From positions 124,001-188,000 of the forward strand of contig NZ_FOKW01000005.1 of NCBI RefSeq assembly GCF_900112205.1: DNA of 64,000 nt, given 5' to 3'. Within the stretch, counting starts at the first letter, position 1, and every line of letters begins with the position of its first letter. This document shows, piece after piece, positions 26,834-56,741 of the stretch. The DNA is from Natronobacterium haloterrestre. Lineage in GTDB: Archaea > Halobacteriota > Halobacteria > Halobacteriales > Natrialbaceae. The translations under genes were made by a program, and so were the position numbers. The notes beneath the pieces are model-generated. The model made no database searches and was not told the DNA's origin. It worked only from the letters and a program-made list of their open reading frames with translations.

Positions 26834-28501
26834 ATGAACGTGGCACGACTCCTTCTTCCCGGACGCGTCCGGCGGAGCTACACCGCGAAGCTGGGGGCGA
26901 TCTTCGCCCTCGTGATCGCGGTCACCGTCGCGTTCGGCGGGGCAGTCTACCTGGAGATCACGGCTGCCATCGCCGAGGCGAACGCCGGCGGGGACGGGAA
27001 CGTGGGGGAGGTCGCGGTTTCCGCGATCCTGGGACTGATCGTACTGACGGTAATCAACCTCGGACTGGTCGCGTCGACGGTCGGGGGGAACACCGCCGCC
27101 TCGCTGTCCTCGTTGTCGAAGAAGGCGAACCGGATGAGCGAGGAGGAACTCGACGTCGACCTCGAGACCCGCCGTAACGACGAGATCGGCGACCTCTACG
27201 ACTCCTTCGCCGAGATGCGCGACTCGCTGCGCGAGTCGATCGAGACCGCCGAGCGGGAGCGCGAACGCGCCGAGGAAGCCCTCGAGGAAGCCGAGACCGA
27301 GCGCGAACGCGCCGAAGCGGCCCGCGAGGAGGTCGAACGCGAGCGCGAACGCCTCGAGGAGATCAACAGCAATCTCGAGCGGGAGGCCGAGCGGTTCAGC
27401 GGCGTGATGGCCGACTGCGCCGACGGCGACTTCACGCGGCGACTCGAGGCCCGCAGCGACAACGACGCGATGGTGGCGATCGCGGAGTCGTTCAACGAGA
27501 TGATGGACGGGATCGAGGAACTGGTCGGCCGGATCGACGGCTTCGCGGAGAACGTCTCCGAGAGTAGCCAGGAGGTGCGAGCAAATGCCGAGCACGTGAT
27601 GGACGCAAGCGAGGACGTCAACCGGACGATCCAGGAGATCTCCAACGGCGCGAACCGCCAGACGGAGAACATCCAGGAGATCGCCCGCGAGATGGACGAC
27701 ATCTCCGCGACGACCGAACAGATGGCCGCGAGCGCGACCGGCGTCGCCGAGACCTCCCAGGAGGCCGCAAGCGCCGGCGAGAAGGGCCGCGAGACCGCGG
27801 AGAAGGCCATCACCGAGATGAACGAGGTCGAGGCCCAGACCGAGGAGGCCGTCGAAGCCATCGAGGCGCTCTACGAGGAGACCCAGGAGATCGGCGAGAT
27901 CACCGAACTGATCGCCGACATCGCCGAGCAGACGAACCTGCTCGCGCTGAACGCCTCGATCGAGGCCGCCCACGCGAACGCCGACGGCGACGGCTTCGCG
28001 GTCGTCGCCAGCGAGGTGAAGTCGCTGGCCGAGGAGACGAAGGAGGCGACCGACGAGATCGACGATCTGATCGGGCGCATCCAGGAACAGTCCCAGGAGA
28101 CCGTCGAGGACATCCGGACGACCAGCGACCGGATCTCGCGGGGCGTCGACACCGTCGAGGAGACCGTCGACTCCCTCGAGCGGATCGTCGAGGCCGTCGA
28201 GGAGGCAAACGCCGGCATCCAGGAGATCAACGAGTCGACGGACACCCAGGCCCGTTCGGCCCAGCAGGTCGTGAACATGATCGACGACGTCGCCGCGGTC
28301 TCCGAGGAGACGGCCGCGGAAGCCGACAGCGTCGCGAACGCCGCGGAGACGCAGGCCGAATCCGTCCGGGACGTCTTCGAGCGGGTCGACGACCTCGCGG
28401 ACGAGTCCGACGCCCTGCTCGAGATCCTGCAGGACGCGACGGTCTCGCGGAGCGGAACCGACGATCGAACCGCACGGACCATCGCGGGTGATGCGGCATG
28501 A
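26834..28501 (+). CDS. htrII: Sensory rhodopsin II transducer HtrII
   Basis: A 555-residue transducer. Two membrane helices (about 19-43 and 60-83) are followed by HAMP domains (about 84-135 and 190-245) and a full cytoplasmic methyl-accepting coiled coil with the CheA/CheW-binding tip [23 protein letters not shown] at about 360-382. The N-terminus ([21 protein letters not shown]) and TM2 ([12 protein letters not shown]) closely resemble Natronomonas pharaonis HtrII. The coiled coil between the HAMP domains is rich in R-E-R-E-R-A repeats and appears 21 residues longer than in that protein. The stop overlaps the rhodopsin start (ATGA), so receptor and transducer are translationally coupled. 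Confidence 0.95.
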
Positions 28502-29208
28502 TCGACCTCCCGGTCTGGTTCGCGATCGGTGCCCTCGGCATGTTCGTCGGGACCGTGGCGTTCGTCTGGGGCGGCCTCTCGGCCAGTGAGGGGTACGTGC
28601 GGTACTACGCCACCCTGGCGGCGATCAGCCTGATCGCGACCGTCGCGTACGCGGTGATGGCCCTCGAGATCGGCTGGTACACGGTCGACGGCCGCGAGGT
28701 GTTCATTCCCCGGTACATCGACTGGATCCTCACGACCCCGCTGTTGCTCGCGTTCCTCGGATTGCTCGCGGATGCCGACCGGGATACCCTCCTCAAGGTC
28801 GTCGGCGTCAACACCGTCGTGATGGTCGCGGGCTTTGCGGGGGCCGTCCTCTCGGGCACCGAGCGGTTCGCGCTCTTTGCCGTCGGCGGCCTCGCGTACG
28901 TGGGACTCGTCTACCTGGTCGTCGGCCCGATGACGGCACAGGCCGCCGGGCAGGACGACGGCATCGAGTCGCTGTTTACCAGCCTGCGGAACCTCACGAT
29001 CATCCTCTGGTCGGTGTATCCGGTCATCTGGCTGCTCAGCCCCGCCGGGTTCGCGCTGCTCACCCCCGGCGTGGACGTAATGCTGATCACCTACCTCGAC
29101 CTCCTGACGAAGGTCGGGTTCGGCCTGATCGCGCTCAACGCGAGTACGGTCATCGAGGCCGAATACGAGACGACGGGGATCGAAGCCGGCGCCGAACAGC
29201 CAGCCTGA
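28498..29208 (+). CDS. sopII: Sensory rhodopsin II (phototaxis receptor)
   Basis: A 236-residue seven-helix retinal protein. It keeps the same residue numbering as N. pharaonis SRII: R72, D75 (counterion, in [11 protein letters not shown]), N105, V108, M109, G130, Y174, T189, Y199, D201, T204 and the retinal lysine K205 (LTKVGFG). These are the residues tied to blue absorption and to the Y174-T204 signalling contact and Y199 transducer contact. It should mediate blue-light avoidance through HtrII, encoded immediately upstream. A proton pump is excluded by the Asp96-equivalent position and the coupling to htrII. Confidence 0.96.
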
Positions 29209-47609: not shown

Positions 47610-48002
47610 TCCGAAATAGGGCCACGCTATCGTGCGCCTACGGGCCGCCGTCGCCCGACGGACCGGATCGAATCGCTGTCAGAGGCACGAAACGTCGTCC
47701 GTCGCCGACGCCGGCGAAGCCGCCGGCCCCGAACCGAACCGGGTCGACGGCCACCCACAGCTCACCCACCGACGCCGCGTCGTTTTCCCGTTTTCCGGTA
47801 GTCGAACGACGGGTAGCGGTCGCTCCGCGCAGGCTTTCGTCGGCCGAGACGACGGAGGAGAGGACCGTGAGTCGGCCTCTGCCCGTCCCCATACCTATCT
47901 CAGTCACGTTCACGTCCACGGCAACGTCTACGTCCACCATCCGCCGACCGGCCGTCGGTTCGCTTCGGTAGCGTTTTGGCTCCGGTCACACTCAGTCCAC
48001 CC
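47610..48002. other. 393-base intergenic region before ahcY
   Basis: I see no supportable gene. A low-scoring reading on the minus strand (47638-47940) has no homology signs. A short promoter-like GCGTTTTGGCTC at about 47970-47981 lies about 22-33 bases before the ahcY ATG, but it is weak. Confidence 0.4.
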
Positions 48003-49310
48003 ATGACCGAGAGCGAGGCCGAACGCGGGAGTGCCTACCCGCCGATCAGCGAACAGCTAGACGACGTCGAGGCCGCCCGCGAGGAGGGCCGACGCAAGAT
48101 GGACTGGGCCGCCCAGCACATGCCCATTCTCGAGGCCGTCCGCGAAGAGTTCGTCGACGACCAGCCGTTCGAGGGCGAGCGCATCGGGATGGCGATGCAC
48201 GTCGAGGCGAAGACGGCGATGCTCGTCGAGACGCTCGCGGAGGGCGGTGCCGAAGTCGCCGTAACGGGTTGCAACCCGCTCTCGACCCACGACGACGTCT
48301 CCGCGGCGCTCGACGCCCACGAGTCGATTACCAGCTACGCGAAACGCGGCGTCGACGACGAGGAGTACTACGACGCCATCGAGGCCGTCATCGCCCACGA
48401 GCCGACGATCACGGTCGACGACGGGATGGACCTCGTCGCCGCGATCCACGAGGACTACCCCGAACTGATCGACGGCATCGTCGGCGGCGCGGAAGAGACC
48501 ACGACCGGCGTCCACCGCCTGCGCGCGATGGACGACGACGACGCGCTCGAGTACCCCGTCTTCGCCGTCAACGACACGCCGATGAAACGGCTGTTCGACA
48601 ACGTCCACGGCACCGGCGAGTCCTCGCTGGCCTCCATCGCGATGACGACGAACCTCTCGTGGGCCGGTAAGAACGTCGTCGTCGCCGGCTTCGGCTACTG
48701 TGGCAAGGGCGTCGCGAAGAAGGCTGCCGGCCAGAACGCGAACGTCATCGTCACCGAGGTCGAACCCCGCCGCGCCCTCGAGGCCCACATGGAGGGCTAC
48801 GAGGTCATGCCGATGGACGAGGCCGCCGAGGTCGGCGACGTCTTCCTCACCACGACGGGCAACCGCGACGTCATCGTCGAGGAGCACTTCGAGAAGATGG
48901 ACGACGGGGTCCTCCTGGCGAACGCGGGCCACTTCGACATCGAGATCGATCTGGACGCGCTCGAGGACCTCGCGGTCGACCGCTACGAGGCCCGCGACGG
49001 CGTCGAGGCCTACGAGATGGAAGACGGTCGCCGACTGAACGTCATCGCCGAGGGCCGACTCGTGAACCTCGCCGCGCCCATCTCGCTCGGCCACCCCGTC
49101 GAGGTCATGGACCAGAGCTTCGGTATCCAGGCCGTCTGCGTGCGCGAGATGCTCGAGAACGGCGACGAGTACGAACCCGGCGTCCACGAGGTGCCCGACG
49201 AACTCGACCGCGAGATCGCGGAGATCAAACTCGAGGCCGAAGGCGTCGAGTACGACTCCCTGACGGATACCCAGCGCGAGTACATGGACTCCTGGGATCA
49301 CGGGACGTAA
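48003..49310 (+). CDS. ahcY: S-adenosylhomocysteine hydrolase
   Basis: A 435-residue NAD-dependent enzyme that splits SAH to adenosine and homocysteine, relieving inhibition of methyltransferases. Motifs: [32 protein letters not shown] (N-terminal), the NAD-binding [22 protein letters not shown], and [10 protein letters not shown]. Full length for archaeal AhcY. The start is ATG 48003. It is near mtaD, consistent with SAH clearance, though the surface protein gene lies between them. Confidence 0.97.
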
Positions 49311-49396
49311 CGACGAAAACGGCTCGCGAACGAGTCCGGGGCGAGCCGCGACGGGCTCGAGAACGGTCCGAAAGCGAACTAGCGAACGGTAGCGGA

Positions 49397-50221
49397 CTAT
49401 TCTTCCGACCCGGTTTGTCCTTGCTCGAGCGCGTCGACGGCGAACACGAGCGACCCGTCCTCGAGGCCGTCGACGCGGACGGTCGCCTCGAAATCGGCAC
49501 CGTCAGGTCGCCGCCCCGTCGCCGTCCCGCTCCAGCGCCAGCCGTCCTCGACGGTCGGGATCGCGGTCTCCTCGAGGCGGCCGACCGCGGACGGCGCGAA
49601 CAGGTCCTGCCACGGACGGCCGGAGAGGGCGTCCCGATCCGCGCCGAACTGGACCGCGAACGCGCGGTTCGCGAACTCGACCGTCCCGTCGGGAGCGACG
49701 ATCGCGATCGCGTCGCCGGCGAGTTCGAGCCCCGAGAACGACCGTTTCGACAGCACGGAGAGACGTCGTCGCTCGGCGAGCCGCGGGAGACGATGGGAAA
49801 GCCGGTCGCGTAGCCGCGCCGGATCGGCGGCGGCCACGACGTCCGTCCAGCGGTACTCGCTCGCCGCGTCCCGTGCCTCGGCGGCCCGGTCCGGCGCCGT
49901 CGTCGCGAACAGCACCGGCACCGTCCCGCGGCGCCGAACGCGCTCGAGGACGGCCGTCGGCTCGGCGGACGCGAGCGGATACTGACAGACGAGACAGTCG
50001 ACGCCGTCGATGGACTCGGCGGCCGCAAGCGAGGGCGTGGTTCGGAGGTGGACTCGCTCCTCGCGGTCGGGGCCGTACTCGGCGTCGGGATCGTCCGTCC
50101 GGTGTGCCTCGAGCGGCTCGATCGACTCGACGAACGCCTCGGTACCGAGGGCGAGCACCTCGAGGGATTCCGAAGCGACGCGCTGATCGCGGAACGTGCC
50201 GGTTATCGAGGGGGATGTCAT
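49397..50221 (-). CDS. PAS-domain signalling protein with degenerate receiver-like N-terminus
   Basis: A 274-residue protein. The first about 140 residues form an alpha/beta domain resembling a receiver-like fold (GVDCLVCQYPLAS, VPVLFATTAPDRAAEARDA), which lacks a clear phosphorylatable Asp pair. The C-terminal PAS domain (about 165-262) reads GDAIAIVAPDGTVEFANRAFAVQFG and GWRWSGTATGRRPDGADFEATVRV. There is no kinase or HTH. It lies 60 bases downstream of the HalOD1 gene on the same strand. Confidence 0.75.
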   Translation of the reverse strand: MTSPSITGTFRDQRVASESLEVLALGTEAFVESIEPLEAHRTDDPDAEYGPDREERVHLRTTPSLAAAESIDGVDCLVCQYPLASAEPTAVLERVRRRGTVPVLFATTAPDRAAEARDAASEYRWTDVVAAADPARLRDRLSHRLPRLAERRRLSVLSKRSFSGLELAGDAIAIVAPDGTVEFANRAFAVQFGADRDALSGRPWQDLFAPSAVGRLEETAIPTVEDGWRWSGTATGRRPDGADFEATVRVDGLEDGSLVFAVDALEQGQTGSEE

Positions 50222-50281
50222 CGGTGGTGTCGTGGCAACGCAGTGCTCGTAGGCCGGGGCGCGGGACTGGCGGGCGCTCGC

Positions 50282-50539
50282 TTACGCCGCCTCATGGACG
50301 GTTCCGTCGACCGAGATGGTACCGTCCCCCCGAACTTCGACCGAGTGTCCTGCGTACTCGAAAGTGACGGCGGCGAACGCGTCCGAGTCGTCCCGGAACA
50401 GCTGGTCGAGGGCCTCGGGGTCGACCGCCTCGTACAGCGGATCGAGTTCGAGCGGGTCGGTGCCGGTCGTGCTTGCGAGCGCATCGATGACGCGGAGACT
50501 GGGCGAGTCGTTGTGGTGATCCAGAGCAGATTCTACCAT
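50282..50539 (-). CDS. HalOD1 output-domain protein
   Basis: An 85-residue stand-alone HalOD1 domain. The core SPSLRVIDALASTTGTDPLELDPLYEAVDPEALDQLF (12-48) and the beta part FEYAGHSVEVRGDGTISVDG are characteristic. HalOD1 is a haloarchaeal output module commonly associated with signalling genes. Start taken at ATG 50539 (MVESALDHHNDSPSL). Probable operon with the PAS protein; divergent from the large LOV regulator, 217 bases away. Confidence 0.82.
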   Translation of the reverse strand: MVESALDHHNDSPSLRVIDALASTTGTDPLELDPLYEAVDPEALDQLFRDDSDAFAAVTFEYAGHSVEVRGDGTISVDGTVHEAA

Positions 50540-50726
50540 CTTACTCCAACGAAGGCGAGGAAGGGGCATTTTCCTGTTTACTATATGCGTTCGGTCGTCG
50601 GCCTGCGGACGCTACATGTATAGCCCCGGACCCGGTCCGACCGACGTCGAGTGCACGACGGCGAGAGAGCGTTCCCGCCGCCGGATACCGGTTGCGGTCG
50701 GTCCGGCGGTCGAGAACGCACCCAAC

Positions 50727-50733
50727 ATATAAT
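50727..50733 (+). promoter_or_regulatory. TATA box of the LOV regulator gene
   Basis: ATATAAT, 24-30 bases before ATG 50757, with CACCCAAC to the left as a BRE-like region. It supports a leaderless start at MCHSS. Confidence 0.65.
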
Positions 50734-50756
50734 CGCTGACACTGTGTATTGCGGGT

Positions 50757-53700
50757 ATGTGCCACAGTTCGACCCCGCCCCTCGCGATCGGTGCCGGATG
50801 GCGGCTCCGTAACGACCGATCCGCACGATCCGGTCGGTTCGGCCGGGACGGGTGGTGGCTCGCGGCGACTGTCGCCCTCGCGGCGTTCGCGGTCATCGGT
50901 GGCCTCGAGTCGACGCCGGCCGTCGACCCCCTCCGGTTCGGCCCCGTCGCGATCGGTTCGGCCCTCCCGTTTCCCGCGCTCCCGGCGGTGCTCGGGCTCG
51001 CCGCCGGCGGCAACGATCGACTCGGCCCCGTCGAGCGCCTCACTGACGACGTCAGAACGGTCGCCGGCGCGCTCGAGGACGCCGAGAGCGTCGCGGACGC
51101 GGACCGGCGATTTCCGGCTGTCGACGCCGAACTCGAGCGGGACGACGAACTCGGCGAGCTGTCGGCGGCGGTCGACGACCTCGCGGCCGTCCTCGACGAA
51201 CGGGTCGAGCAACTGGCCGCGAACGAACGCTCCGGGGAGGCGCTCGACCGGATCGCGTCCGATGCCGACCTCGAGCCCGAAGAGACGATCCGGCGGCTCC
51301 TCGAGATCGGTCGCGAACGGCTGGGCGTCGAGGCAGGGTTCGTCGCGCGACGGAATCCCGACCGGAGCCGCTACGAGGTACTGATCGCGGAGGGAAGCGA
51401 GGTCGTTCTCGAGGGCGCACACGCGCCGATCGAACGGGAACACGGCGGACGGGAAGACACCGGCGATTCAGGCGATTGCACCGACGGGACCGTCGAATTC
51501 ACCGACGGTTCCGGGGCCGAACTCGAGGTCTCCGACGGGGCCCACCCCATCTGCGGAGCCTGGGCCGACCGGGGCGTCGAGTGGGCCGCCGGCGGACGGA
51601 TCGACGTCGACGGGGAGCCCTACGGGACAGTCTGTTTCGTCGATCGCGAGCCACGCGAAGCGCCGTTTACCGGGATCGAACGGACGTTCGTCGACCGCGT
51701 TCGGCGGCGGTTGAGCCACGTCCTCGAGCGCCGGGAGTACGAGCGGGAGCTTCGGCTCAAGACCCGGGCGCTCGATTCGGCACCGATCGGCGTCACGATC
51801 ACGGACCCCGACGAGCCGGACAATCCCATCGTCTACGCCAACGAGGAGTTCGAGCGGCTAACGGGGTACTCGCCGGCGGAGTACCTCGGGCGGAACTGCC
51901 GGTTCCTCCAGGGGGAGGGGACCGATCCCGAACGGGCCGCCGAGCTACGTGATGCCGTCGAGGCCGCGGAACAGACGACCGTCGAACTTCGCAACTATCG
52001 GGCGGACGGGACGCCGTTCTGGAACCGGGTGACGGTCACCCCGCTCGAGGACGACGCGGGGGCGGTCACCCACTTCATCGGGTTCCACGAGGACGTCACC
52101 GAGCGCAAGCGCCGCGACCGCGAGCTCCGCGAGCGGGAACAGGAGCTGTCGGCGCTGATGGACAACGTCCCCGGGATGGTCTACCGGTGTCGAAACGAGC
52201 CCGACTGGCCGTTCGAGTTCGTCAGCGGTGGTGCCGAGGAGATCACCGGCTACGAGCCCGCGGAACTGGTCGACGGCGACGTCAACTGGGGACGGGACGT
52301 CCTGGTCGGGAACCGGGACGATCTCTGGGACGACGTCCAGCGTGCGCTCGAGAACCGGGAGCCCTACCGGGTGACGTACCGGATCGAGACCGCCGACGGC
52401 GAGCGCCGGTGGCTGAGCGAACAGGGGCGTGGCGTGTTCGACGAGGACGGCCAACTCGCGCACCTCGAGGGGGCAATCGTCGACATCACCGAGCAGGTCG
52501 AGAACGAACGGGCGCTCGAGCGGACCCGCGGACTGCTCGAGCAGGCCCAGCGGATCGCCGGCGTGGGCGGCTGGGAACTCGACGTCCGGGAGGACGAACA
52601 CGAGGTAACGTGGACCGAGGAGACGGCACGGATCCACGGGCTCCAGCCCGGGACCGTCACCGACCTCGAGCGGGGGTTCGAGGGCCTGCTCGACTACTAC
52701 CACCCGGACGATCGACCGAAACTCGAGGCGGCGATCGAACGGGCCATCGAGGACGGCGAGCCCTACGACCTCGAACTGCGGCTGATCCGGGCCGACGGCG
52801 AACAGCGGTGGGTGCGGACGATCGGGGAGCCGATCGCCGACTGCGGGCGACAGTCCGCGGCACGGACGGGATCGGACGGGGACGATCGCGACGACGGTGC
52901 GCCCGAGGGTGTAGACGGGGACGTCGACATCGACGCCGTTCGCGGCTCCATTCAGGACATCACCGAGCAGAAGGAACGCGAGCAGGACTTAGAGCGAACG
53001 CGGGCCTTCCTCGAGCGGATCCAGACGATGGCCGACATCGGCGGCTGGGAGCTCGACATGCGGACGGATCCGCCGACGCCGACCTGGACGGACGAACTGT
53101 TCCGGCTCCACGGGATGCCCGACGACGAGGAGCCCGACCTCTGGGAGGCGATCGACAGATACCACCCGGACGACCGGGAGACGGTACGCGAAGCCCTCGA
53201 GTCGGCCATCGAGAGCGAGACCATCTACGACCTCGAGGCGCGGATACAGCCGGAGCCGGACGAGATCAGGTGGGTCCGCGGGTTCGGCGAGCCGATCTTC
53301 GAGGACGGCGAACTCGTCAAGTACCAGGGTGCGCTCCAGGACATCACCGACCGGAAGGAACGGGAACTCGCCCTCGAGTCGCTCCACGAAGTGGCCAGGG
53401 GGCTGCTCGGTACGGAGACGGTCGGGGACGTCGCGGAGACGGTCGTCGACGCCACCGACGACCTCCTCGACGCGCCGGGCGTCGCCCTCTACGTGCTCGA
53501 TGCCGAGGTCAACCGGCTCGTCCCGATCGCACGCACCGAGGCGTTCGAACGGCTCTCGAGCGACGACCCGTCGGCTGCCGTCGGGAACGGCGATTCGGTC
53601 CTCTGGAACGCCTTCGTCACGGGGGTACAGACCGTCGTCGACGACGCGGTCGCGTTCGACCGCTCCGAGGCCTTCGAGACGGGCGTCGAGAGCGCCGTCG

Positions 53701-55202
53701 TCGTCCCCATCGGCGACCACGGCGTGTTCGCGGTCGCCTCCGACGGGGAGCCGATCGACGTCGAGGCCCGGCGGCTGATCGAGACCCTGGGCGCGACGAC
53801 CGAAGCCGCGCTCGACCGCCTCGAGAGCGAGGCCAACCTGCGGGAACGCGACGCGGAACTCGAGGCGCGCAACCGCCGGCTGCGACGCCAGATCACGATC
53901 AACGAGACCATCAGACGGATCAACCAGTCGCTGATCGGCGCGACGAGTCGGGCCGAGATCGAACGCACCGTCCCCGAGCAACTGGTCGCGGTCGAAGAGG
54001 TTGCGTTTGCCTGGATCGGCCGGTCGGGACCGGACGGCGAGTCCCTCGAACCCCGCGGGTGGGCCGGCGACGGCGAGGAGTACCTCGATCTCGTTTCGCT
54101 CGATGCGGCGGGGGCCGGCGACGCGGACGGGGACGGATCGATCCCCCCGGCCGTCAGAACCGCCAGCAACGAGGAGACGACCGTCGTCGAGAACGTCGTC
54201 GAGGACCTCCAGCGCGAATCCTGGCGCAAGCGCGCCCTCGAGGCCGGGTTCCAGTCGGTCGTCAGCGTCCCGCTGGCCGTCGAGGAGTACTCCTACGGCG
54301 TCCTGACCGTGTACGCGACCGAGCCCGACGCGTTCACCGGCCTCGAGCGGACGGTGTTCGGTGAACTCGGCGAGGCCATCGCGAACGCGATCACGGCGAC
54401 GAAGACCCGCGAGGCGCTGCACGCCGAGACGGTCGTCGAACTCACCCTCGAGATCCCCGATTCGACCGACGTCCTCTCCCGGATCGCGTCGCTGACCGAC
54501 GCCCGGGTCGAGTACGAGGGGCTCGGTACCCACTCCGACTCCGACTCCGACTCCGACTCCGACTCCGGCGACGACGCGCTACTGTTCTTCGAGACCCGCG
54601 GGGCCGACCCCGACGCGGTCGCAGCGGTCCTCGAGGACCTCGTGTCGGTGTCGGAGTATCGGTTGCTCAGTGCCGACACGAACGGGGATAACGGGGGAGA
54701 AAACGAAGATAAAGACGAAGACGAAGACGAAAACGAAAACGAGGAGGCAACCTGTCGATTCGAAGCACTCGTTACCGGCCCCGTCATCGCCTCGTGGCTG
54801 GTCCGTCACGGCGGCAGCCCCCGGTCGATCGTCGCCGACGGCGCGGAGACCGTCGTCACCGTCGACGTCCCCGCCGGCACCGACGTCCGCGAGTTCGTCG
54901 AGACGTTCGCCGACCACACCGGCGACGCGGACCTCCGGCGTCGTCGCCACGTCGAACGCGCACTCCAGACTCGCCGGGAACTCGTCACCTCGCTGTTCGA
55001 CGCCTTGACCGACCGCCAGCTCGAGGTCCTCCGGACGGCCTACTTCGCGGGTTTCTTCGAGTGGCCCCGGGAGAGTACCGGCCAGGAGGTCGCCGAGGCG
55101 CTGGGGGTGAGCCAGCCGACGGTCAACCGCCACCTCCGGATCGGCCAGCAACGCCTGTTACGACAGCTGTTTGAAGACGGTGCGGTCGCGGTCGGCGAGT
55201 AG
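50757..55202 (+). CDS. LOV-PAS-GAF-BAT-HTH_10 sensor/regulator
   Basis: A 1481-residue multi-domain signalling protein. In order: two possible membrane segments (about 33-48 and 60-80), a helical linker, a GAF-like domain (about 165-325), a LOV/PAS domain (about 340-455) with GRNCRFLQG and adduct Cys C381, three PAS domains (about 460-580, 590-735, 745-875), GAF-like domains (about 880-1030 and 1060-1215), a BAT domain (about 1225-1400) and HTH_10 (about 1418-1475: LTDRQLEVLRTAYFAGFFEWPRES). In the LOV domain NYRADGTPFWN is intact, but the usual flavin-sensing Gln of FIGxQ is H444. Low-complexity SDSDSD and EDEDENEN insertions break the BAT domain. It should bind flavin, sense blue light and/or redox, and regulate transcription. 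Confidence 0.92.
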   Translation: MCHSSTPPLAIGAGWRLRNDRSARSGRFGRDGWWLAATVALAAFAVIGGLESTPAVDPLRFGPVAIGSALPFPALPAVLGLAAGGNDRLGPVERLTDDVRTVAGALEDAESVADADRRFPAVDAELERDDELGELSAAVDDLAAVLDERVEQLAANERSGEALDRIASDADLEPEETIRRLLEIGRERLGVEAGFVARRNPDRSRYEVLIAEGSEVVLEGAHAPIEREHGGREDTGDSGDCTDGTVEFTDGSGAELEVSDGAHPICGAWADRGVEWAAGGRIDVDGEPYGTVCFVDREPREAPFTGIERTFVDRVRRRLSHVLERREYERELRLKTRALDSAPIGVTITDPDEPDNPIVYANEEFERLTGYSPAEYLGRNCRFLQGEGTDPERAAELRDAVEAAEQTTVELRNYRADGTPFWNRVTVTPLEDDAGAVTHFIGFHEDVTERKRRDRELREREQELSALMDNVPGMVYRCRNEPDWPFEFVSGGAEEITGYEPAELVDGDVNWGRDVLVGNRDDLWDDVQRALENREPYRVTYRIETADGERRWLSEQGRGVFDEDGQLAHLEGAIVDITEQVENERALERTRGLLEQAQRIAGVGGWELDVREDEHEVTWTEETARIHGLQPGTVTDLERGFEGLLDYYHPDDRPKLEAAIERAIEDGEPYDLELRLIRADGEQRWVRTIGEPIADCGRQSAARTGSDGDDRDDGAPEGVDGDVDIDAVRGSIQDITEQKEREQDLERTRAFLERIQTMADIGGWELDMRTDPPTPTWTDELFRLHGMPDDEEPDLWEAIDRYHPDDRETVREALESAIESETIYDLEARIQPEPDEIRWVRGFGEPIFEDGELVKYQGALQDITDRKERELALESLHEVARGLLGTETVGDVAETVVDATDDLLDAPGVALYVLDAEVNRLVPIARTEAFERLSSDDPSAAVGNGDSVLWNAFVTGVQTVVDDAVAFDRSEAFETGVESAVVVPIGDHGVFAVASDGEPIDVEARRLIETLGATTEAALDRLESEANLRERDAELEARNRRLRRQITINETIRRINQSLIGATSRAEIERTVPEQLVAVEEVAFAWIGRSGPDGESLEPRGWAGDGEEYLDLVSLDAAGAGDADGDGSIPPAVRTASNEETTVVENVVEDLQRESWRKRALEAGFQSVVSVPLAVEEYSYGVLTVYATEPDAFTGLERTVFGELGEAIANAITATKTREALHAETVVELTLEIPDSTDVLSRIASLTDARVEYEGLGTHSDSDSDSDSDSGDDALLFFETRGADPDAVAAVLEDLVSVSEYRLLSADTNGDNGGENEDKDEDEDENENEEATCRFEALVTGPVIASWLVRHGGSPRSIVADGAETVVTVDVPAGTDVREFVETFADHTGDADLRRRRHVERALQTRRELVTSLFDALTDRQLEVLRTAYFAGFFEWPRESTGQEVAEALGVSQPTVNRHLRIGQQRLLRQLFEDGAVAVGE

Positions 55203-55314
55203 CGAGCTCTCGCCGCCCGCGGGTGTTGACGAGCGTGACGGACGATCCGCTACAGAGCCGGCCCCATCGCCCGACACAGGAACGCCCAAAAGGCCAGTTC
55301 CCGTAGGGACGTGC

Positions 55315-56160
55315 ATGGAAACCCCCTCGACGTCGACGTCCTCCTACCAGCGCGACGACGGGCCGGTACGGGCGACGCTCGTCGGCATCGGTCTGACCGT
55401 GTTCGGACTCCTCATGGCCAACGTCTTGACGACGCCGGCGTTCCTGTTCGATCCCGCCCTGCTCGAGGGGCTCGGGAACGGTTCGATCGCGGGCCGGACC
55501 CTCGCGCTGATCCTGAACTTCGTCGGGATGTTCCTGGCCGGCCTGCTCTACCTGCTGGCGACCGGCCGTGGGTTGGCGTGGATCGACCTGCGGATTCCGT
55601 CCCGACGCGACTGGAAGTACATCGTCGCCGGCGGCGTCGGCAGCCTCGTCTTCCTGTTCGCGTTCAACATCGTCACGACCCTGCTCGAGGTGTCGGCCGC
55701 CGAAAGCCAGATAATGGAGATCATCGGGGGAGACCAGACGATGATCCTGATCATGATCGTCGTCGTCTTCCTGTTCAACGCGCCGGCCGAGGAGTTCCTC
55801 TTCCGGAACGTGATACAGAAGCGGTTGTACGCCGCGTTCACCCGAATGCAGGCGGTCGTCGTGGCGAGTGTCATCTTCGCGCTCGTCCACTTCCCCATGT
55901 ACGTCGCCTTCGCCGACTCCCTCCTCTCGACGCTTGCGTCCCTGACGGTGATGTTCGGCGGCGCGCTCATTTTCGGCTACGTCTACGCGAAGACGGACAA
56001 CCTCCTGGTCCCGACGGCCGCCCACGCGGTGCTCAACGCCTTCCAGTTCACCGTCCTCTATCTCGCCATCGAGTACGGCATCGAGGAAGTGCAGGCCGAA
56101 CCGGCGACGCTGGCCGAGGTCGCCGACGCGGTCTGGACCGTCGCTGTAGCCCTGGCATAG
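55315..56160 (+). CDS. CPBP family intramembrane metalloprotease, copy 1
   Basis: A 281-residue membrane protein with about seven helices. Motif 1 is APAEEFLFRN (E159, E160, R164), motif 2 is VHFP (H192), and motif 3 AAHAVLNA (H237, N241), the CAAX-protease/bacteriocin-processing signature. It is a glutamic-type intramembrane protease; substrates are unknown. The start ATG 55315 is selected for family length. It is 113 bases after the LOV regulator on the same strand. A second CPBP gene lies at 57.7 kb. Confidence 0.9.
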   Translation: METPSTSTSSYQRDDGPVRATLVGIGLTVFGLLMANVLTTPAFLFDPALLEGLGNGSIAGRTLALILNFVGMFLAGLLYLLATGRGLAWIDLRIPSRRDWKYIVAGGVGSLVFLFAFNIVTTLLEVSAAESQIMEIIGGDQTMILIMIVVVFLFNAPAEEFLFRNVIQKRLYAAFTRMQAVVVASVIFALVHFPMYVAFADSLLSTLASLTVMFGGALIFGYVYAKTDNLLVPTAAHAVLNAFQFTVLYLAIEYGIEEVQAEPATLAEVADAVWTVAVALA

Positions 56161-56219
56161 CCCTCGAGTCCCCGACCGCTGTCCGTTCCTTTATTATTCG
56201 GCGCCGGTGAGAGAGGTGT

Positions 56220-56741
56220 ATGTCCCACGCGAAGGGCGACCGCCGCGAGCGGGAACTCGTCAACGAACTCGACGAGGCCGGCTTCGCGGTGATGCGAGCG
56301 CCTGCAAGCGGCTCCGCGACGGAACGCGAACTCCCAGACGTACTCGCCGGCGACGGCGAGACGTTCTACGCCATCGAGGCGAAATCGAGTTCGGGCGACC
56401 CCATCTACCTCTCCGGCGAGGAGGTCGAGGCACTGACCTACTTCGCGCAGAACTTCGGCGCGAAACCGCGCATCGGCGTCCGGTTCGACCGCGAGGACTG
56501 GTACTTCTTCCACCCCGCGGACCTCCACGTCACCGACGGCGGCAACTACCGGGTCAAGAAGGAGACCGCCCTGGCCGACGGCACCGACTTCCCCGAGTTC
56601 GTCGGCGACAGCGAGAAGGTCACTCTCGAGGAGGTCGGCGAGGACGGGGACGACGGCCACGACGAGGACGTCCTCAGGGTTCTGAACGCCGTGAAACAGG
56701 GGACGATGGAGATCGAGGAGGGGGCCGACCTGCTCGAGTGA
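56220..56741 (+). CDS. hjc: Archaeal Holliday junction resolvase Hjc
   Basis: A 173-residue nuclease that resolves four-way DNA junctions during recombination. Family motifs: [60 protein letters not shown], in which E10/E12, D40 and E52-A-K54 form the PD-(D/E)xK site. The C-terminal acidic region (about 125-173) is longer than in thermophile Hjc. It begins 59 bases after the CPBP gene on the same strand. Confidence 0.94.

Follow-up and report, generated by a model that had tools for sequence, protein, structure and literature searches.

A haloarchaeal LOV-PAS-GAF-BAT-HTH_10 regulator with histidine at the active-site glutamine position of its LOV domain

In LOV photoreceptors the active-site glutamine passes the adduct state on through flavin N5. 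A gene of Natronobacterium haloterrestre, located in a 64 000-nt stretch of contig NZ_FOKW01000005.1 (hereafter the window), encodes a regulator whose LOV domain has histidine at this position. Gln-to-His is among the few substitutions here reported to block LOV photochemistry, yet in this protein it occurs naturally beside an intact adduct cysteine. Does the histidine mark a different way of signalling, or a light sensor that has been weakened or blinded?

Gene and domain architecture

The gene and its features are as follows.

50757..55202 (+): gene for the PAS/LOV-GAF-BAT-HTH_10 regulator, an open reading frame of 1481 aa with a 90% identical orthologue in the same genus
51765..52103 (+): LOV domain, residues ~337–449 (PAS_9, E 2.6e-25 for the isolated piece)
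51888..51914 (+): LOV motif GRNCRFLQG with the adduct cysteine C381 (codon 51897–51899)
52086..52088 (+): codon CAC for His444, which stands in for the conserved active-site Gln; orthologues have CAG
52116..53408 (+): three PAS_3 domains (Pfam), C-terminal to the LOV domain
53400..54407 (+): two GAF_2 domains (Pfam)
54426..54983 (+): BAT domain, residues 1224–1409 (PF15915, 118 bits, over the cut-off)
55005..55160 (+): HTH_10 DNA-binding domain, residues 1417–1468 (PF04967, 64 bits, over the cut-off)

The open reading frame and the LOV-PAS-GAF-BAT-HTH architecture proposed for it by a sequence-only reading are real, as judged by Pfam matches, which place the BAT domain before HTH_10. The title of that reading named the domains correctly; it omitted the N-terminal region, where Pfam gives no match and one or two stretches are hydrophobic, and the PAS domains after the LOV domain number three. 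The best PDB matches of an AlphaFold model of the LOV domain are LOV structures (Foldseek, E about 1e-9); the model, whose underlying alignment was thin, has a mean pLDDT of 67 and is too weak for side-chain geometry. The regulator and the Bat-type bacterio-opsin activators (PF15915 plus HTH_10) have the GAF-BAT-HTH_10 output arrangement in common, but the sensor block is larger in the regulator and control of an opsin gene is not apparent. Two distant orthologues (L021 and L022) are without any Cys-type LOV domain, so the LOV domain is a lineage-variable sensor module of this regulator.

Position and rarity of the histidine

The sequence-only reading had taken the motif GRNCRFLQG to be intact, with its cysteine at 381, and H444 to occupy the place of the usual Gln. 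Both assignments hold: the cysteine is at 381, and HMMER alignment to solved LOV domains (PAL, 6hmj; Chlamydomonas phototropin LOV1; YtvA/YF1) sets His444 against their active-site Gln. These alignments, together with that of the 144 domains described below, rule out misalignment of H444. N413, N423, R382, R398 and Q385, whose contact with flavin is an established role, are all present, and each is conserved in 132–144 of the 144 relatives.

The relatives are 144 distinct Cys-bearing haloarchaeal LOV domains, taken from a protein search of haloarchaeal genomes and from about 120 further domains added to its results (loci picked by the Gln pattern were left out). The active-site position is Gln in 142 of them and His in two, namely this regulator and L149, which is from another genus; conservation in haloarchaeal LOV proteins, which the sequence-only reading had suggested checking, is thus high, and His is rare. 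Since His444 stands where nearly all relatives have Gln, the domain, as classed by its residues, is not a canonical Gln-type LOV; it fits the glutamine-deficient type (LOV-deltaQ), in which the hallmark LOV residues are kept and the active-site Gln is replaced (PMC9098866).

Among patterns applied to DNA, a strict one for the Gln form matched 195 of the 391 genomes of the class, the strict His form (anchored on AACTGC) matched this genome only, and a further pattern, with FWN as its anchor, gave six cases of His across six genera. The idea that His is unique to this regulator, as the AACTGC-anchored pattern had it, was dropped, the FWN-anchored pattern and the protein survey having given other cases. 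A search of plasmids for LOV domains returned distant LOV matches only.

The other Cys/His domain (L149/L214, genome G110) is an independent haloarchaeal LOV that retains the Cys and has His in place of the Gln; its open frame is 633 aa long. In further LOV-like domains from haloarchaea (L202/L211, L212, L213 and L215) His likewise occupies the Gln position, and the Cys is replaced by Ser, Tyr, Phe or Leu.

A recent change in a conserved locus

The nearest orthologue (G002, same genus, syntenic) is 90% identical over the protein and 91% in the LOV domain, and has Gln encoded by CAG. Three further orthologues also have Gln (G004 and G001, both with CAG, and G080). CAG in the sister and CAC here differ by one base, G-to-C. 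In the tree His444 maps to a terminal branch, with support of 0.99 for the sister clade, in agreement with Gln in the same-genus syntenic orthologues and in G080, and the other His cases fall elsewhere. As read from this tree, the Gln-to-His change is recent and, within the genomes examined, confined to this species, and haloarchaea acquired His at the active-site Gln position on several occasions. Among the sampled relatives a conserved His clade is ruled out, the His cases being scattered over several places in the tree. The dedicated alternative mechanism that the sequence-only reading implied finds no footing here: the His is private to the species and the sister has Gln, and because the syntenic orthologue and the three further orthologues have Gln, what is seen is one G-to-C change and not a conserved alternative mechanism.

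The order ahcY, PAS protein, regulator, CPBP/Rce1-like protease and Hjc, by which the orthologous locus was recognised, is common to the same genus and Natronorubrum, and partly to Halosimplex; with a HalOD1 gene separating the PAS protein from the regulator, this order (47976–56741) is kept across several haloarchaeal genera. Compared with the sister, dN/dS is 0.31 over the whole gene and 0.37 within the LOV segment, by which the gene is not decaying (the period after so recent a change is not covered by these values). The closeness of the LOV segment to the whole gene gives no indication of special relaxation, a point against a blinded LOV module but a weak test for a change so recent. A pseudogene is ruled out by the intact frame and the whole-gene ratio.

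Published LOV variants

About 350 natural proteins of the LOV type lack the Gln, His-bearing ones included, and most Gln substitutions retain signalling; Q-to-H did not (Dietler et al. 2022, PMC9098866). In that work YF1 Q123H and AsLOV2 Q513H bound flavin without forming the canonical adduct; PAL Q347H lost its light response, being held in a lit-like state, while YF1 Q123H was fixed in a dark-like one. The natural Gln-deficient example assayed, a Met variant, kept its light response. For AsLOV2 Q513H another laboratory reported incomplete bleaching and faster recovery, in 27–30 s (Zayner and Sosnick 2014, PMC3903614), and the two studies do not fully agree on this variant. In ALovD-1, an archaeal LOV of Lake Diamante, the Gln is retained (Q109) and the domain photocycles (PMC12202551).

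The substitution in YF1 Q123H, NmPAL Q347H, AsLOV2 Q513H and CagFbFP Q148H (structure 6ywr) is identical to H444, and the same alignment column was confirmed for YF1/YtvA and PAL; but those are laboratory mutants, whereas H444 is natural, and in a halophile. Glutamine-deficient LOV domains, with His or otherwise, are already known, and this protein is a further such case; it differs from the natural one tested (PMC9098866) in having His, not Met, and in being an archaeal BAT/HTH_10 regulator. The haloarchaeal LOV domain of ALovD-1 (PMC12202551) likewise lies inside multi-sensor proteins and has the same motif, but there the Gln is kept.

What the LOV domain may do

We give a rough probability of 0.55 to the reading that the LOV module has recently been weakened or blinded, and that the otherwise constrained regulator now follows its other inputs. 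The module would derive from a blue-light sensor of the ordinary Cys/Gln kind, in which a single CAG-to-CAC change put His in the place of the active-site Gln. It probably still binds flavin, with a cysteinyl adduct that is poor or absent; N5 protonation would then not be relayed to the beta-sheet, the LOV module would be frozen in a single state, leaving the remaining PAS and GAF inputs to set the DNA-binding output. That state may be dark-like or lit-like, as the engineered Q-to-H examples went both ways. The altered photocycle of the sequence-only reading agrees with YF1 Q123H, AsLOV2 Q513H and PAL Q347H, and so draws partial support, from mutants elsewhere. The same genome encodes a second LOV-HTH_10 protein with an intact Gln, so redundancy is possible.

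The native context may compensate. Against a blinded module stand the intact Cys381 and other conserved pocket residues, and AsLOV2 Q513H, which in the second laboratory still photocycled, with partial bleaching. These same observations favour the main rival, a photoreceptor that still works but is attenuated or recovers fast, in which the adduct forms, His or a water relays the N5 signal, and sensitivity or kinetics are tuned. The short recovery time of Q513H (PMC3903614), the signalling of the natural Met variant (PMC9098866) and the purifying selection on the gene are all consistent with it; we nevertheless consider it unlikely, though less so than any other alternative, as Q-to-H abolished the canonical adduct of YF1 and AsLOV2 and left PAL unresponsive to light, and most other substitutions behave differently from Q-to-H (PMC9098866). 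Considerably less probable is a redox or photoreduction sensor, in which His would stabilise flavin in its reduced or semiquinone form, so that what the domain reports would be redox state, or light via photoreduction, instead of the adduct: Cys-less LOV receptors can signal via the neutral semiquinone, according to the literature, and bleaching is altered in His variants (PMC9098866, PMC3903614), but the Cys is retained here and, with a conserved His clade absent among sampled relatives, long-term selection for His is not apparent. An error of sequencing or assembly at this one base, or a neutral variant confined to the strain, seems to us just as improbable; a single assembly of the species was examined and the sister differs by one base, but the rest of the 4.4-kb frame is intact, and L149, from another genus, is an independent LOV of the Cys/His kind.

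The His protein and its Gln sister, so similar in the LOV domain, offer a natural comparison for asking whether Q-to-H is rescued by its native context, and the pair also bears on how LOV sensors lose or change function.

Histidine and loss of the adduct cysteine

The Cys is missing in four of the six His cases, which have Ser, Tyr, Phe or Leu instead, and in four of the 30 domains with Gln that served as controls (Fisher p = 0.014, with six cases and kinship ignored); the controls were found with the same kind of pattern and are the first 30 domains among the matches listed. We regard this apparent association as a lead. Loss of the Cys along with His is the expected outcome if His marks lost photochemistry. 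A more speculative extension, which we think rather doubtful, is that Cys/His LOV domains have repeatedly served haloarchaea in nature as a way from photochemistry to redox or constitutive signalling through flavin, in which Gln gives way to His before the Cys is lost; this protein would then be at the first step, with its Gln-bearing sister as control.

Upstream region and genomic surroundings

A putative promoter element lies upstream of the regulator.

50725..50735 (+): TATA-like element CATATAATC, about 25–30 nt 5' of the ATG, conserved in same-genus relatives

Its conservation upstream of the ATG supports the start codon, and the element suggests a leaderless transcript starting at 50757. 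The intergenic region upstream of the regulator was searched for tRNA and Rfam RNA, and none was found; this stretch is unusually conserved because the small HalOD1-domain gene (50282–50536, reverse strand), also kept in relatives, sits there.

Elsewhere in the window, two overlapping genes (26834–28501 and 28498–29208, both on the forward strand) encode a transducer (Htr2 transmembrane domain, HAMP and MCP signalling domains) and a rhodopsin, which by their domains resemble an HtrII/sensory rhodopsin II-like pair and would constitute a further light-sensing system. The rhodopsin gene is about 22 kb upstream of the regulator, and a tie between the two is not apparent. The genome as a whole (G000) has six rhodopsin-family matches and 63 HTH_10 matches, a very large set of BAT/HTH_10-type regulators.
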